Origin: Dongia deserti
GTDB taxonomy: Bacteria; Pseudomonadota; Alphaproteobacteria; Dongiales; Dongiaceae
Reading direction: 5' to 3'
DNA: 64,000 nt
Assembly: GCF_003574735.1 (NCBI RefSeq)
Contig: NZ_QORW01000009.1
Span: 62,001-126,000 of the forward strand
The notes beneath the pieces are model-generated. The model made no database searches. It was not told where the DNA came from and worked only from the letters and a program-made list of their open reading frames with translations. Within the stretch, counting starts at the first letter, position 1; each line of letters begins with the position of its first letter. This document shows, one piece after another, positions 6,369-61,594 of the stretch. Position numbers and translations under genes: made by a program.

Positions 6369-7691
6369 ATGGCTGATGATTCATTGTTCGCCGAGGATTT
6401 CGCCGAGCGCCCGCATTGGTGGGAACTGGCTGCGCCGGAGGCCTGCGAAGAAGGCGACCTGCCGGCCACCGCAGATGTGGCGATCGTTGGTTCGGGGTAC
6501 ACCGCGCTGGTTGCAGCAGTTCATCTGGCGCGGGCCGGTCGATCGGTCCTGGTGCTGGAGGCAGCGGAGGCGGGGCACGGCGCCTCGCGCCGCAATGCCG
6601 GCTATCTGGGCCGCACGCTGAAGCGTTCTTTCACCTGGCTGGAATCGCACCACGGCGCAGAATTTGCGACCCGCGTCTATCGCGAGCTGGATGCTGCGCG
6701 GCAGTGGGTCTGGTCGCTGACCGCGGAGCTCGGCATCGACTGCCACATCGCGCAATGCGGCCGCTTCATCGCCGCCACGTCCGAAGCGCACTACAATGAT
6801 CTGGCGCGGGAGCTCGAGACCATGCGCCGGCGCCTCGACTTCCCGTACGAGATGGTCGCGCCTGCGGATGTGCGCCGCGAGCTGGCGAGCGATGCCTATG
6901 TGGGCGGCGCGGTCATCCCCGATCTCGGCTCCATCCATCCGGCGCTCTATCATCGCGGCCTGCTGCAGGCGGCGCGCGCAGCGGGCGTCCGCGTTTTCAC
7001 CCACACGCCGGTGACTGATATCACGCGCGACGGCAAATCCGCACAGGTCACGACGCCGCGCTGGTCCATCACAGCGCGCGAGGCCATCATCGCCACCAAC
7101 GGCTATACGCCGCGGCATCTATCATGGCTGGCGCGCCGGGTCGTCCCGTTCGAGGGCTTCATGGCCGCGACGGAGGAACTGTCGCCGGCGCTGATGGCGA
7201 AGATCATCCCCAACGGCCGCACCGTGGTCGACAGCAATGTCAACATCAACTTCTTCCGCCCGGCGCCTGACCAGCGCAAGATCCTGTTCGGCGGCCTGAC
7301 CGGCAGCCGGCCGCAGAACCTGCGCGACATGGCCGCGCGTCTGCACGCGATGGCAAGCCGTCTGCTGCCCGACCTTGCGCAGGTGCGCCTCAGCCGCGTT
7401 TGGAAGGGGCAATGTGCTGGCACCTTCGACTTCATGCCGCACATCGGCCGGCACGAAGGCCTGTGGTATGCGCTGGGCTATAATTTCGCGGGCGTGCCGA
7501 TGGGCTCGTATCTTGGCTTCAAGCTGGCACAGCAGATGCTTGGCAAGAAAGACGGTGAGAGCGTCTTTGCCGCCACGCCGTTCCCGACCTTGCCGTTCTA
7601 TACTGGCAATCCCTGGTTCGTGCCCATCGCCATGCGCTGGTTCGACTGGAAGGATGCGTGGGTCAGAGGTCAGAAGTCAGATGTCAGATGA
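6369..7691 (+). CDS. FAD-dependent amino acid/amine oxidoreductase (DAO family)
   Basis: A DAO-superfamily flavoprotein of about 440 residues. The N-terminal dinucleotide fold is VAIVGSGYTALVAAVHLA with the acidic LVLEA strand end. Then come SRRNAGYLGR (FAD-binding), IIATNGYTPR and the C-terminal FMPHIGRHEGLWYALGYN, as in gamma-glutamylputrescine oxidase-like and glycine oxidase-like proteins. I chose ATG 6369; GTG 6357 is an alternative closer to a GAAGGG. The last nine codons (VRGQKSDVR) are encoded by the start of a heptanucleotide repeat array. It is followed by the cyclodeaminase gene, so it probably acts in amino-acid catabolism. Confidence 0.8.
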   Translation: MADDSLFAEDFAERPHWWELAAPEACEEGDLPATADVAIVGSGYTALVAAVHLARAGRSVLVLEAAEAGHGASRRNAGYLGRTLKRSFTWLESHHGAEFATRVYRELDAARQWVWSLTAELGIDCHIAQCGRFIAATSEAHYNDLARELETMRRRLDFPYEMVAPADVRRELASDAYVGGAVIPDLGSIHPALYHRGLLQAARAAGVRVFTHTPVTDITRDGKSAQVTTPRWSITAREAIIATNGYTPRHLSWLARRVVPFEGFMAATEELSPALMAKIIPNGRTVVDSNVNINFFRPAPDQRKILFGGLTGSRPQNLRDMAARLHAMASRLLPDLAQVRLSRVWKGQCAGTFDFMPHIGRHEGLWYALGYNFAGVPMGSYLGFKLAQQMLGKKDGESVFAATPFPTLPFYTGNPWFVPIAMRWFDWKDAWVRGQKSDVR

Positions 7692-7752
7692 CAGAAGATC
7701 GGTCTATGATACCGCGCCAACTGACATCTGATCTCTGACATCTGATCTCTGA
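7666..7752. repeat. heptanucleotide repeat hairpin between two genes
   Basis: The left arm is a run of GTCAGAN heptamers starting inside the upstream gene. The right arm is the reverse complement (TGACATCTGATCTCTGACAT) ending right at the next start codon. Together they fill the whole intergenic space and could form a stem of about 30 bp with a loop of about 20 bases. Confidence 0.8.
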
Positions 7753-11020: not shown

Positions 11021-11126
11021 CGTCATCACCGGGCCGATGCGCAGCATCGAGACCCGGTAATCCAAGTCTGCCTGCGCCGCTCTGAGATAAACTTGGATGA
11101 CCGGATCTTCCTCCGGCAATGACGGT
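11021..11126. mobile_element. REP-B pair without nuclease (MITE-like)
   Basis: The left arm (CGTCATCACCGGGC to CCCGGTAATCCAA, 11021-11065) and the right arm (AACTTGGATGACCGGATC to TCCGGCAATGACGG, 11090-11124) match the two arms of the element at 61129-61531. In that element a GIY-YIG gene lies between them; here only about 24 bases do. This looks like an internally deleted, non-autonomous copy. Confidence 0.65.
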
Positions 11127-11152: not shown

Positions 11153-14100
11153 TTACTTCCGTGGCACCGTGGCTGGGTCTAGGCGCGACATCGGCACGGC
11201 GGCTTCCATCACGATCTTCACCGCGACATTGGTGGGAACGACCCGCTGGGCGGAGACGATGAGGGAGCGCGCGGCGACCGCGATGTTCATCGGCCAGAGC
11301 GTCGGCTCTGTCTTGGCGAGATGCTGGCGCGCCTTGGCCCACAGGCGGTTCACGGCATCGCGCGGCAGGACATTGGGCGTGCGCCCATCGGGCAGGCGCG
11401 GGATGCCGAACTCCGGCGTGCCGACGCTGGCGGCGCAATGTTCCAGCATCTCTGTCACGTCCGGATGCTCGCTGGTCGTGCTCTTGGATGTGCCGGTGAT
11501 GATCTTCCAGATCGAGAGATAGCGCGGATCGAGCGAGCCGATCAGCTTGTCGGTCTCCGCCGAGAAATAGAACTTCTCGCCGGCGTCATTTGTGCGCACC
11601 TCGAACACGTCGGTGGGGCTCAAGCCGCCGGTCTGCACCACGCCTTCCCAGATCGCGCGTTGCGCGGCATAGCCTGCGAGCGCGCCGACGATGGTCAGCA
11701 CCGTCACGTGGTTCATGTCCGGCTCGACGGCGAGCTCCGCTTTCAGCCATTCGATGAGTTGTGCCGCGACCTTGCTATAGGCCTGCGCCGGCGCGGCGGG
11801 CGCCGTCTCGAACAACGTCGCGACACTCTGCGGCGCAGAGGCCGCCGGCGGCAGCGTCGGCTCCGCGGCTTTCGCGGCAGCGGGTGCCGTATTCGGCCGC
11901 GCCGACGAATTGATCTGGCCGGGCTGCAGCCCTTTGCGCATGATGCCGGCGATGCGGTCGGTCGCATCGCCGCTGGATTGCGCGCGCGGCTCGGTCACGG
12001 TGCGCTTGGTCGAGTCCGACTGCACCTTGCGGAAAATCGCTGCGATCCGATCGCGCGTATCGACCGGTCCGGTCGGCTGCGCCGTCGGCTCCTTGCGCGC
12101 CACCACCTCGGCGAATTTGGCCTTCAGCTGGCTTTCGACGTTCCCGCCTTGAGCACGCGGCTCTGATGGCGCAGCTTGCTCGGACGTTGTTGCAGCGCCC
12201 ATCGCAGGCTTCGCCTCGGCTGTCGCCGGAGAGCCGGCAAGCGGCGCGGCGCTCGCTGCGATCGGCTGGGCCGTCTTCGCGGCCGCGGCGGCCGGCGCGA
12301 CCGGCTGCGTGCCTGGCGCCTGGGGCGCAGTTGGCGGCGCCTCGTCCGAAGTCTTGGCGATGCCGGACAGGAACCCCGCCGCGCGGCGGAGCAGGGGCGA
12401 CTTGCCTTTCGCGTCGGGTGCTGCGCTCGGCTTGGCGGCCTCGCGCTTGGCTGCCTCCAGCTTCTCGGCTTCGAGGCGCGCGGCCTCTGCCTGCTCGGCC
12501 GCCACGCGCGCGGCTTCGAGCCGCTCGGCTTCCAGTCGTTCCGCTTCCAGGCGCTCTGCCTCGAGCCGTTCTGCCTCGAGCCGCTCCGCTTCGCGCTTCG
12601 CGGCTTCGATCCGTTCGGCCTCGCGCTGGGCATTCTCGCGGTTGAGCGCTTCCAGGCGCTCGGCTTCCAGGCGCGCCGCCTCGTTCTGCCGTGCCGCTTC
12701 CCGGCGCGCGACTTCGAGCTTCTCGGCTTCGCGCTTCGCCGCCTCGCGGGTCTCCGCTTCGATGCGCTGCGCCTCGGCGATCGAGGCTTCCAGACGGGCG
12801 GCTTCGCGCTGGGCTTCCTCGCGTTTGGCCGATTCCATCTTGGCGGCTTCGGCCTTCAGCGCCTTCAGCTTCGCCGCTTCCGCCTTGGCCGCCTCGAGGC
12901 GCGCAGCTTCGCGCCCCGCCGCCTCGCGATTGGCATATTCCAGCCGCTCCGCTTCCAGGCGGGCGGCCTCGCTCTTGGCGGCCTGCTCCCTGGCGGCTTC
13001 GATCTTGGCGGCCTCCAGCGCGGCCGCTTCCTGCCGCGCGGCTTCGAGGCGCACTGCTTCCTGCCGGGCTGATTCCAGCTTCTCCGCTTCCTGCCGCGCG
13101 GCCTCGCGCGCGGCGGCCTCCAGCTGCTCGGCCTCGAGACGCGCGGCCTCGCGCTTGGCGGCTTCGGCCTTGGCGGCTTCCAGCTTCGCGGCTTCGACCT
13201 TCGCCGCTTCCTGGCGGACCGCTTCGAGGCGCGCGGCCTCGCGCTTCACCGCTTCCAGCTTCTCCGCTTCCTGCCGCGCGGCCTCGCCCGCGGCGGCCTC
13301 CAGCTTCTCGACCTCGCGGCGCGCCGCCTCGCGCTTGGCGGCCTCCGCCTTCGCGGCTTCCAGCTTGGCGGCCTCGAGCTTCGCGGCTTCCAGGCGCGCG
13401 GCTTCGACCCGCGCCGCTTCCTTTCGCGCGGCCTCGAGCCTTTCGGTTTGGAGACGCGCCGCCTCTCTTGCGGCGGCTTCGACCTTCTCCGCTTCCTGCC
13501 GCGCAGCTTCCAGGCGGGCGGTCTCTTGCCGCGCTGCTTCCAGCTTTTCCGTTTCGATGCGCGCTGCCTCGCGGGCTGCTTCCGCCAGCTGCTCGGCTTC
13601 CAGGCGTGCGGCTTCGATGCGCGACGCCTCGCGCTTGGCGGCCTCGAGCTTTTCTGTCTCGATCCGGGCGGCCTCGCGCGCGGCGGTTTCCAGCCGTTCG
13701 GCTTCCAGGCGCGCCGCCTCCCGCTCGGTCGCCAGCGCACGGGCGGCTTCCAGTCGCTTCTGCTCGATCTCAGCCGCTTCGCGTCGCGCGGCTTCGATTC
13801 GTTCGGCCTCGCGCTTGGCAGATTCCAGGATCTGTGCCTCGCGCGCCGCTGCCTGCCGCGCGGCGATCTCCAGCTTCTCCGCTTCACGCCGCGTCGCTTC
13901 GCGCTTGGCGGCGGTTGCGCGCGCTGCCTCCAACCGCTCCAGCTCGCGCTGCTCGAGCGCGCGATTGGCTGCTTCCAGGCGCTCGGCTTCCAGGCGCAGC
14001 GCTTCGGCCTTCGCGGCCTCCGCTTTGGCGGCTTCCAGCCGCGCCGCTTCGCGCTCCGCTGCCTCGCGGTTGGCCGCCTCCAGCCGTTCGGCTTCGACAC

Positions 14101-26903: not shown

Positions 26904-26905
26904 TT

Positions 26906-27000
26906 CAGATGTCAGAAGTCAGATGTCAGAGGTCAGGTGTGATCCGACATTCGGGCGTAACGCGCCATACTGACATCTGACATCTGCCCTCTGACATCTG
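26906..27000. repeat. heptanucleotide repeat hairpin between hisB and hisH
   Basis: The left arm is TTCAGATGTCAGAAGTCAGA and further units; the right arm holds CTGACATCTGACATCTGCCC and more. Together they fill the hisB-hisH gap. The units are 7 bases (GTCAGAN), the arms complementary, so a long stem inside the his transcript is possible. Confidence 0.75.
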
Positions 27001-38387: not shown

Positions 38388-38426
38388 AACGTCGGGCAGA
38401 AGGCACAATGTCGCCACTGCTCAAAC

Positions 38427-38823
38427 TGTCACCCCGGCCTTGAGCCGGGGTCCATCCATCCGCCGCTCGGGCCGTCGTGAGCTATTGGAGGTACATCCTC
38501 TGCAACAAGCCTCATGGCACGCTATACGTCGGGATGACCAATCACATCATTGCGCGTGTGCATCAGCATCGCGAAGGACTCATTGAAGGCTTCACCAAGC
38601 GCTATGGCATCACGCGGCTGGTATACTTCGAGGAGTATGCGACGCCCGGGGAAGCGATCGCGCGCGAGAAGACGCTCAAGCGCTGGCCGCGCGCGTGGAA
38701 CATTGCTTTGATCGAGCGCGCAAATCCGAACTGGGACGACCTGTATGAAGGACTCGCGCGCTGGGCGTAATGCCAACGATCGTGCGGCGGATGAAACGAC
38801 CCCGGCTCAAGGCCGGGGTGACA
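38427..38823. mobile_element. GIY-YIG element bounded by exact 26-bp inverted repeats
   Basis: Left end 38427-38452 begins TGTCACCCCGGCC; right end 38798-38823 is its exact reverse complement over all 26 bases. Each end is itself a palindrome (CCCCGGC ... GCCGGGG). A single gene, a GIY-YIG nuclease, lies between. Related arms occur at 46678 and 61571. No clear target-site duplication was seen. Confidence 0.65.
38477..38770 (+). CDS. small GIY-YIG nuclease-family protein
   Basis: A 97-residue single-domain GIY-YIG protein of the kind often annotated as a UvrC-like or YhbQ-like nuclease. Features are YILCNKPHGTLYVGMTN, HQHREG (catalytic Arg/His region), EGFTKRYGITRLVYFEEY, and EAIAREKTLKRWPRAWN with the metal-binding Glu. 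GTG start at 38477. It lies inside a pair of inverted palindromes. A close homologue is at 61191. Confidence 0.88.
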   Translation: MSYWRYILCNKPHGTLYVGMTNHIIARVHQHREGLIEGFTKRYGITRLVYFEEYATPGEAIAREKTLKRWPRAWNIALIERANPNWDDLYEGLARWA

Positions 38824-38877
38824 GCGGGGGGTAGGCGTCAGCGTGCGTCCGTTCTGACATCTGTCATCTGAAATCTA

Positions 38878-46677: not shown

Positions 46678-46774
46678 TGTCATCCCGGTCTTGAGCCGGG
46701 ATCCATTCCGCCGTCACACGCGCGGCTGAACCATGGAACCCGGCTCAAGACTGGCTCAAGGCCGGGGGTGACGG
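46678..46774. repeat. REP-A pair without nuclease (MITE-like)
   Basis: TGTCATCCCGGTCTTGAGCC and the following GGGATCC form the left arm; the right arm (GGAACCCGGCTCAAGACTGG, then CTCAAGGCCGGGGGTGACGG) is its inverse relative with an extra partial copy. The arms match those of the element at 38427, but only about 30 bases lie between them. It lies directly upstream of the EamA gene. Confidence 0.6.
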
Positions 46775-49442: not shown

Positions 49443-49543
49443 GTGTCAAGACGTTTCGCTCATAAGGCGACCGGCGCAGACAGGGTCGCCGCTGACTGAT
49501 GGGCCCGTTTTTGTTCCAGTTTTGAGAGCGGACAGGGTGCCTG

Positions 49544-49605
49544 GCGCTACTTCCGCCCCAGCCTTTTCTCGATCGCGTCCCAGATGCGGTCTTCGAGCAC
49601 GACCT
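49544..49605. repeat. duplicate of the gshB 3' end
   Basis: These 62 bases match 50107-50168 at 61 of 62 positions, and that second copy is the true end of gshB. The duplicated part includes codons for the last ~19 residues of GshB on the minus strand and its stop codon. It flanks a segment of about 500 bp carrying one gene. Confidence 0.85.
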
Positions 49606-49683
49606 GGTGACACGGTCACGGCTGACGGCACTGTCATGCTGACGCTGCTATGTCTACAAGGGGATGCGCAGCTGGATAGCGTC

Positions 49684-50094: not shown

Positions 50095-50106
50095 CGGCAA
50101 GGCGTT

Positions 50107-50168
50107 GCGCTACTTCCGCACCAGCCTTTTCTCGATCGCGTCCCAGATGCGGTCTTCGAGCACGACCT
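50107..50168. repeat. second copy of the 62-bp duplication (gshB end)
   Basis: The copy that forms the real gshB C-terminus and stop codon. It carries a single mismatch with 49544-49605. Confidence 0.85.
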
Positions 50169-51057
50169 TGTCGAAGCGGTTGACTTCCTGCAGGCCTGTG
50201 GGCGAAGTCACGTTGATCTCGGTCAGGTAATTGCCGATCACGTCAATGCCGACGAAGATCATGCCGCGCTCGCGCAGCGTCGGACCGATCGCATCGCAGA
50301 TTTCCCGGTCGCGCGGCGTGAGCACCGATTTCTCCGGCCTTCCTCCGACATGCATGTTGGAGCGTGATTCGCCCTTGGCCGGCACGCGGTTGATGGCGCC
50401 AACTGCTTCGCCATCGATCAGGATGATGCGCTTGTCGCCCTGGCGCACTTCCGGCACGTAGCGCTGCACCTGGATCGGCTCGCGATAGAGCTGCGTGAAC
50501 AGCTCCAGTAGCGCGTTGAGATTCTCGTCCCCGGGCGTGATGTGGAACACGCCTGCGCCGCCATTGCCGAACAGCGGCTTCACGATGATGTCCTTGTGAT
50601 AGTCGCGGAAGGCCAGGATCTCCTGCCGGTCGGAGGTGATCACGGTGGGCGGCATCAGGTCCGCGAACTGCGTGACGAACAATTTCTCCGGCGCGTTGCG
50701 CACATGCACGGGATCGTTCACCACCAGGGTCTTAGGGTGCACCGTTTCCAGGATGTGCGTCGCGGTGATGTAGGCCATGTCGAATGGCGGATCCTGCCGC
50801 ATCAGGATCACGTCCATGGTCGAGAGCTCGAGCAGCTCCTCTTCGCCCAGCGTGAAATGATCGCCCGCCTTGCGCCTGAGGCTCATCGGCCGCGCCCGGG
50901 CATAGGCCTTGCCGTCGCGCAGCGTGAGCTGCCACGGCAAGTAGTGCCAGAGCTTATGCCCGCGCGCCTCGGCGGAGAGCCCCATCACGAAGGAGGAATC
51001 CCCCTCGATATTGACGTTCTCGATCGGGTCCATCTGGATGGCAACACGCAGGGGCAT
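50110..51057 (-). CDS. gshB: glutathione synthase
   Basis: A 315-residue ATP-grasp ligase that joins glycine to gamma-glutamylcysteine. It has the GshB opening [20 protein letters not shown], the ATP-grasp loop [12 protein letters not shown] and the ending [21 protein letters not shown]. Start ATG 51057. The upstream frame continues 21 codons but is not conserved in character. In alphaproteobacteria this gene often sits near rsmI/yraN; here it is ~8 kb from them. Confidence 0.94.
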
Positions 51058-61128: not shown

Positions 61129-61531
61129 CGTCATCACCGGGCGAGGAGCGTAGCGACGAGACCCGGTGATCCAAATTACTCTGACCCGCGATGGGCTTCT
61201 GGGTCTACATCATGACCAACAAGCCGTTCGGTACGCTCTATGTCGGCATGACGAATGACCTTGTGTTCCGGGCATACCAGCACCGCCAAGGCTTGTTCGA
61301 AGGTTTCACCAAGCGCTACGGCCTCAAGATGCTGGTCTACTACGAGGAACACGCGAGCGCCCCAGAAGCGATCCGGCGCGAGAAGAATATCAAGCACTGG
61401 CCGCGGGCGTGGAAGATCGAGTTGGTGCGCAAAATGAATCCGGGATGGCGCGACTTGTTCGACGAGATCGCGCTGCAATAGAACTTGGATTGCCAGATCA
61501 GCCGCTTCGCGTCCGTCCGGCAATGACGGTA
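61129..61531. mobile_element. GIY-YIG element bounded by REP-B arms
   Basis: Left arm 61129-61174 (CGTCATCACCGGGCGAGGAG to CCCGGTGATCCAA) and right arm 61482-61530 (AACTTGGATTGCCAGATC to TCCGGCAATGACGG). The inner ends are inverted relatives of each other (CGGTGATCCAA versus TTGGATTGCC). A single GIY-YIG gene lies between. The nuclease-less copy at 11021 has the same two arms. Confidence 0.65.
61191..61481 (+). CDS. small GIY-YIG nuclease-family protein
   Basis: A 96-residue protein closely similar to that at 38477: YIMTNKPFGTLYVGMTND, EGFTKRYGLKMLVYYEE and EAIRREKNIKHWPRAWK. The catalytic Arg and metal-binding Glu positions are intact. It starts with ATG 61191. Its place between two REP-B arms differs from the other copy, which lies between REP-A arms. 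Confidence 0.88.
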   Translation: MGFWVYIMTNKPFGTLYVGMTNDLVFRAYQHRQGLFEGFTKRYGLKMLVYYEEHASAPEAIRREKNIKHWPRAWKIELVRKMNPGWRDLFDEIALQ

Positions 61532-61570
61532 AGAGAGACGGAAATGCCTTTACTGTCGAGAACGAGCCGC

Positions 61571-61594
61571 GCCGGCTCAAGGCCGGGGTGACGG
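61571..61594. repeat. REP-A fragment
   Basis: GCCGGCTCAAGGCCGGGGTG and the next bases match the right arm of the element at 38427. No left arm is found nearby. Confidence 0.55.

Follow-up and report, generated by a model that had tools for sequence, protein, structure and literature searches.

Small GIY-YIG nuclease genes between CGTC-type REPs in Dongia deserti: putative recognition sites and possible homing-like exchange

A small GIY-YIG gene of Dongia deserti lies between the arms of an exact inverted repeat, raising the question of how gene and repeats are related. The locus was studied in a window of 64,000 nt, corresponding to G000:C51:62001-126000 in the source genome (G000; 6.13 Mb, 51 contigs), and its features are listed in Table 1. 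The arms are REPs of the CGTC type, and the arrangement is probably explained by these being the nuclease's own putative recognition sites, with homing-like exchange of the gene together with its repeats. Within this reading, the predicted recognition of REP hairpins by the nuclease is strongly supported by comparative sequence data, and mobility of the unit is moderately supported.

Table 1. Units A and B and gene-less REP pairs in the window (window coordinates).
Feature	Positions	Strand	Evidence
Left REP arm, unit A: YGTC tag, stem, CCA tail, sub-terminal CATCCGCCGC	38426..38466	+	Sequence, hairpin scan, fold
GIY-YIG nuclease gene (A-type), 97 aa, GTG start, intact	38477..38770	+	PF01541, conserved residues
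Right REP arm, unit A, inverted, exact over 27 bp	38784..38824	-	Sequence, hairpin scan
Left REP, unit B, ATCACCGGG stem	61129..61173	+	Hairpin scan, REP pattern, fold
GIY-YIG nuclease gene (B-type), 96 aa	61191..61481	+	Profile, conserved residues
Right REP, unit B, ATTGCCGG stem, interrupted	61486..61528	-	Hairpin scan, fold
Leftover A-type REP outside unit B	61570..61594	-	Aligns with right REP of G002 A-type unit
REP, left half of gene-less tail-inward pair	11021..11064	+	REP pattern
REP, right half of the same pair	11094..11124	-	REP pattern
REP, left half of second gene-less pair	46678..46705	+	Hairpin scan
Degenerate REP, right half of second pair	46734..46774	-	Read by eye; absent from hairpin scan list

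An earlier note on this DNA had described an exact 26-bp inverted repeat with palindromic ends around the gene. The exact match is in fact 27 bp (CTGTCACCCCGGCCTTGAGCCGGGGTC, 38426-38452 on the plus and 38798-38824 on the minus strand), and is followed by a mismatched block of 4 nt and 10 more matching base pairs (CATCCGCCGC), so that each full arm spans 41 bp with a single break. As single-stranded DNA, the core of each arm comprises an unpaired CTGTC tag, an 8-bp stem, a 5-nt loop and an unpaired tail, which begins with CCA in the left arm and CGT in the right. The palindromic nature of the ends is borne out by the predicted fold (-10.5 kcal/mol, z -4.4), which was equalled by none of 200 shuffles. 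On both sides the tags point outward and the tails face the gene.

The gene itself is intact, and its product belongs to the GIY-YIG superfamily (PF01541, E 1.6e-12; 48.0 bits, cut-off 22.6). An alignment of 35 sequences showed Y17, E64 and N83 to be invariant and Y6, R27 and H31 nearly so; all six residues, among which we presume the catalytic ones to be, are kept in the protein of unit A. Comparison of its gene with the copy in genome G002 gave a dN/dS of 0.08. The closest solved structures by profile are the UPF0213 proteins 1zg2 (E 3.6e-10) and 1ywl (E 1.1e-6). Searches of PHROGs and PADLOC with the two GIY-YIG proteins of the window returned no match, and NCBIfam gave no family for them, while two of seven relatives showed weak, sub-cut-off NCBIfam matches to group I intron endonucleases. 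A homologue in N. gonorrhoeae is 51.8% identical to the window protein (E 2e-22) and lies among dRS3-like repeats on both sides, with an arm score (defined below) of 106; we take it to be the published Ssn. One N. gonorrhoeae record, NZ_CP119142.1 (2.17 Mb), is labelled a plasmid in PLSDB and, judging by its size, is probably the chromosome.

The second protein of the window, at 61191, had been placed by the earlier note between different but analogous arms, and these proved to be two REP-type hairpins oriented as in unit A, with tags outward and tails inward. Their stems are unlike each other (flank-to-flank score only 22) and their folds are weaker, with z -1.5 for the left REP (14 of 200 shuffles as good) and z -2.2 for the right (5 of 200). 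The REPs are 341 nt apart in unit A and 312 nt in unit B. A third gene of this type is found elsewhere on the contig (C51:35493-35759) between arms with the core CGTCATGCCAAGGCTTGGCCTTGGCATCCACGA. Fold calculations on A-type and third-copy REPs as single-stranded DNA gave stable hairpins with fixed ends. Thus, all three genes of the window type in this genome are framed by CGTC-form REPs with differing stems; matched arms were absent from its two other GIY-YIG genes, a 139-aa ORF (score 21) and a 681-aa uvrC-like gene (score 20).

REP pairs also occur without a gene. The nuclease-less copies pointed out previously near 11021 and 46678 are genuine gene-less pairs, the latter with a degenerate right half. 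Across the source genome a degenerate REP pattern gave 29 matches against none for the reversed pattern, and 14 of the 29 form seven tail-inward pairs with gaps of 28-31 nt, leaving no room for a gene. A pattern for REPs with a CTTG loop gave 73 matches against two reversed. The A-type 39-mer has only four copies within three mismatches, two of them the arms of unit A, which suggests that recent spread of the A subtype has been small. Repeats of other kinds were also seen in the window: dense 15-bp repeats at 12417-13309 and beyond (58 overlapping copies; probably coding sequence of low complexity), TCAGATGTCAGA-like direct repeats at 7663-7694 and 26905-26950 with a similar short stretch near 38858, and a 70-nt direct duplication (49539-49608 and 50102-50171; 94% identical, 563 nt apart).

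The arms correspond to a described class of repeat. In the available sections of a survey of CGTC-REPs (Di Nocera 2013, PMC3733652), these have a CGTC tag (TGTC or CCTC in many), stems of 8 or 9 bp, loops of 4 or 5 and mostly CCA tails, and their pairs are mostly head to head. They are divided into families 1-4, which include dRS3 (in CGTC-1), RPE-4 and RPE-6, and occur in five phyla and all alphaproteobacterial orders, most of them in alphaproteobacteria. The window arms share the CGTC or TGTC tag, the 8-9-bp stem, the CCA tail, the high copy number and the pairing with tails inward. The same sections of the survey describe CGTC-REPs as lacking a dedicated transposase and name no partner gene, and the available parts of PMC5082802 and PMC12306157 name no partner enzyme. 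In meningococcus, dRS3 is present in nearly 700 copies that serve as phage integration sites, according to a portion of PMC10745880.

If the nuclease and the REPs are functionally linked, as the earlier note supposed, then small GIY-YIG genes should be associated with palindromes in other genomes as well, and should not be found equally often without them. A first sample of 61 genomes provided 60 loci in addition to the three of the source genome, the 63 being what remained of 75 matches after 10 weak ones were left out and two fragment pairs merged. The arm score was the local inverted similarity between the 250-bp flanks, with thresholds of 30 and 40. Scores of at least 30 were found at 49 of the 63 small GIY-YIG genes and at 7 of 624 other ORFs of the same regions, and scores of at least 40 at 41/63 and 0/624; among small ORFs of these regions (70-160 aa), just 1 of 207 had arms at the lower threshold. 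CGTC-form hairpins stood on both sides at 23/63 loci and 1/624 ORFs, in a test that requires the first 6 bp of the stem to pair perfectly and overlooks many arms visible in alignments. The 14 genes below threshold include L004, through a wrong coordinate, and the gene at 61191, whose stems are unlike; since arm identity fails at this last locus, where the two REPs differ in stem, it was dropped as the sole criterion and the hairpin test added. At some loci (L081, L083, L087, L090) it is the tags of the nearest repeats, not the tails, that face the gene. Owing to the general likeness of REPs, 70 of 745 combinations reached 30 when upstream flanks were scored against the downstream flanks of other loci; for flanks of the same locus the figure was 41 of 63 (41 rather than 49 because gene ends were wrong for broken genes in this control run).

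A second sample of 80 named loci, picked from the GTDB collection by a conserved peptide pattern, gave a similar picture. L206 was skipped for its short flank, and 74 of the 79 testable loci scored at least 30 against 2 of 395 shuffled pairs; at 40 and above the figures were 63/79 and 0/395. The shuffles kept dinucleotides save where dinucleotide shuffling failed, and the sample is not fully independent of the first, as L141 and L212 repeat loci of it. Loci at 30 or above carry the labels alpha-, beta- (L199), gamma- and deltaproteobacteria, Flavobacteriaceae, Omnitrophus (L177) and Dehalococcoidia (L205), labels that are not proof of origin since many loci are MAGs. The five below 30 are L182 (beta), L187, L189, L190 and L203 (Scalindua-labelled). 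In both samples, then, genes of this type were framed by palindromes far more often than the controls, as expected under the link drawn in the earlier note. It is very improbable that the arms simply terminate transcription or stabilise RNA around a short gene: REPs are predominantly downstream of coding regions in the available sections of PMC3733652, but here an inverted hairpin pair with conserved unpaired tag and tail encloses the gene on both sides, an arrangement rare at neighbouring genes.

Tag and tail are kept from unit to unit, but stems differ greatly, even among units of a single genome. When loci of different genomes were compared in pairs (12 hand-listed syntenic pairs excluded, the L069/L089 pair among those left out), similarity of the proteins correlated with similarity of the arms (rho 0.38); shuffling arms within genomes gave a mean rho of 0.23, and the observed value was reached in 2 of 1000 shuffles. 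These comparisons give good support to a match between arm type and protein over and above genome identity. Eight of 12 weak matches (L116-L123) belong to another clade near the UPF0213 structures (L119 against 1ywl, E 1.2e-9), and all eight have arms of a TGAG...TCGAA type, such as CTTCGACAAGCTCAGG, with longer forms in L116, L122 and L123; these palindromes are unrelated to CGTC-REPs. A class sample of 115 genomes, from which 22 of 30 loci were taken and 15 tested (seven being untestable at contig edges), contained such arms at six of eight testable second-clade loci (L222-L226 and L230, of which L223 barely, and L224 and L230 repeat L118 and L117). Of all 15 loci, the narrower test placed six at a score of at least 30 and the wider test 11, including L223 and L245 by a small margin. 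Both clades occur in genome G028, where L094 and L105 have CGTC-form arms, L107 has arms that match more weakly, and L117 and L122 have arms of the TGAG...TCGAA type, so that species identity does not explain arm type.

The GIY-YIG gene might instead be a passenger, surviving between REP pairs that are hot spots of recombination or insertion. REPs do attract other elements, for example a 445-aa transposase-like ORF (as read from its sequence) between REPs beside the GIY-YIG unit of L072 (6999-8336, genome G010), which is absent from the syntenic site of G006. This explanation is nevertheless improbable, given the single framed gene among 207 small ORFs of the same regions, the tracking of the protein by arm type and the similar framing of loci labelled with several phyla. 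The link proposed in the earlier note is well supported by the framing far above controls and by this tracking, and gene-less pairs of the same repeats are common in the genome.

The number of REPs in a genome was compared with the presence of the gene (counted at E below 1e-11 and without the second clade). The median number of CTTG-loop REP matches was 29.5 in the 28 genomes with the gene and 1 in the 33 without (P 1e-5), with totals of 1061 and 231 (reversed pattern, 28 and 18), and the gene was present in 16 of 19 genomes with at least 20 matches and in 12 of the 42 others. This relationship is confounded by family, since 16 of the 19 REP-rich genomes belong to the family of D. deserti and genomes of other families show little contrast (13 and 31 genomes, medians 4 and 1, P 0.02). 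REP-rich genomes without a detected gene are G001 (106 matches, 68% complete), G004 (43) and G018 (22, 81% complete). A tandem array of CGTC-REPs in alternating orientation, with about 196 nt per pair, occupies G004:C67:15486-16456.

REPs of other kinds are associated with RAYTs (Y1 transposases), and a RAYT might move the REPs here, the GIY-YIG gene being incidental. The layout is REPtron-like, and 16 of the 61 genomes have Y1 genes. However, a search with PF01797 gave no match in the source genome or three congeners (one of them 68% complete) despite their 46-198 REP matches, so that none of the four genomes of the genus is among the 16. Presence of Y1 made no clear difference to REP counts (medians 9 and 3, P 0.24), and in the available sections of PMC3733652 none of the Y1 genes of CGTC-bearing species is flanked by CGTC units. 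With no Y1 in the genus and REP number not tracking Y1, a RAYT was rejected as the mover, and we consider it a most unlikely one.

Comparison of syntenic sites, whose neighbouring genes are named from their sequences, revealed turnover. Site A lies between a TPR/protease gene and a deacetylase-like gene. The congener G003 has an A-type unit there in the opposite orientation, its gene shortened by 11 residues including R27 and H31, and G001 has a single REP beside the same neighbour, about 200 bases from the contig start, with the rest of the site out of view. Site B, between a lipoprotein-like and a methyltransferase-like gene, shows three states in three species: an A-type gene with CCCCGGCC arms in G002, a gene-less REP pair in G003 that retains, in its right half, the sub-terminal stretch of the A type (GTGCGGCGGATGAATGGA), and in G000 the B-type unit with the leftover A-type right REP just outside it. 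On the simplest history, whose direction is presumed, site B began with an A-type unit; one lineage lost it, and in another it was displaced. Site C, that of the third gene, is occupied in both G000 and G003, like site A; it is claimed for these two only because L069 of G002 is not collinear with L089 around the gene. The earlier note proposed a search for empty sites in related strains. A clean insertion beside an untouched empty site was not present among the alignments of sites A and B, and no target-site duplication, as would mark an IS or MITE, was seen by eye in their flanks.

Close gene copies are under strong purifying selection, indicating constraint at the protein level: of eight pairs compared, seven had a dN/dS of 0.04-0.13, several of them with nearly saturated synonymous changes, and the remaining pair, formed by copies A and B of the window, had 0.30.

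These data bear on a rival reading to which we would give slightly worse than even chances, namely that the enzyme recognises REPs solely for the host, in the control of DNA uptake or in replication or repair of hairpins, the unit being immobile and REPs spreading otherwise. Neisseria Ssn is said to modulate natural transformation, strong purifying selection suits a host function, and the occupation of sites A and C in both G000 and G003 indicates that some units predate the species. Harder to reconcile with it are the several units per genome with different stems, the exchange of occupants and leftover repeat at site B, the flip at site A, and the shortened G003 copy without R27 and H31. The flip and the exchange fit homing, although ordinary repeat recombination would look alike, and recombination between inverted repeats could produce the flip without an enzyme.

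The preferred reading, homing-like exchange by a nuclease that recognises its own REPs, can be put as a sequence of steps. GIY-YIG domains cut DNA, and they hydrolyse it without a covalent intermediate, so RAYT-like strand transfer is not expected. The enzyme would bind the REP hairpin in DNA that becomes single-stranded during replication, repair or DNA uptake, and would cut the REP at a fixed place, as is reported for the Ssn family. Cut gene-less REPs could then be repaired from a REP-gene-REP copy with the REPs as homology arms, and gene and repeats might by this route spread, swap and invert at REP sites. Cutting of single-stranded DNA at the cognate REP is the most likely predicted function, in view of the GIY-YIG domain, the conserved REP partner, the stable single-stranded hairpins, the homologue set among dRS3 repeats and the activity reported for Ssn. 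The earlier interpretation of the loci as small nuclease-linked REP elements is partly supported by these comparisons.

More tentatively, and with rather less confidence than for the window units, small GIY-YIG nucleases may be the general propagating enzymes of CGTC-REPs, forming homing-like REP-gene-REP units parallel to RAYT/REPIN, with the UPF0213-like clade doing the same for CTTCGACAAGCTCAGG-type palindromes. CGTC-REPs are one of two large REP superfamilies, and should these nucleases create or maintain them, an enzyme would be assigned to a superfamily of orphan repeats. REPs would then have become joined to a nuclease on at least two occasions, the enzymes being unrelated, and matched enzyme-target pairs would be available in each genome. 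Small GIY-YIG genes would offer many natural candidates for hairpin-specific cutters of single-stranded DNA with differing targets.

A 2025 paper in Nature Communications reportedly describes Ssn as a family of site-specific GIY-YIG nucleases for single-stranded DNA, with thousands of homologues, the Neisseria member acting on its repeat (NTS). Given this family and the Neisseria repeats, the idea of a nuclease paired with a repeat is not new in kind; the open-licence literature, a scope that does not take in the Ssn paper, yielded no paper on a GIY-YIG/REP link. New aspects may be that the repeats belong to the CGTC-REP superfamily, that syntenic sites show turnover, and that a second clade has palindromes of its own.

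Like Ssn, the window proteins are small and stand-alone, with a homologue set among repeats; unlike it, their units are alphaproteobacterial, occur in several copies per genome and have other stems, and their cleavage activity is a prediction. They differ from the CGTC-REPs of the survey in having a GIY-YIG gene inside the pairs and in several loops far beyond 4-5 nt. UPF0213 proteins are nearer to the second clade, whose palindrome family differs from the REPs of the window units. With free-standing GIY-YIG homing endonucleases the units share the catalytic domain and the suggested spread by cutting and repair, but there is no intron and no separate DNA-binding module, and the proposed target is the hairpin repeat that frames the gene. 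The comparison with REP/RAYT units made in the earlier note, with a GIY-YIG enzyme in place of the Y1 transposase, fits the layout: like RAYT, REPIN and REPtron systems, these loci have a nuclease gene between REPs, gene-less pairs and a conserved tetranucleotide tag, whereas the enzyme is GIY-YIG rather than HUH Y1 and the tag is YGTC, not GTAG, so that neither of the two RAYT hallmarks is seen here.
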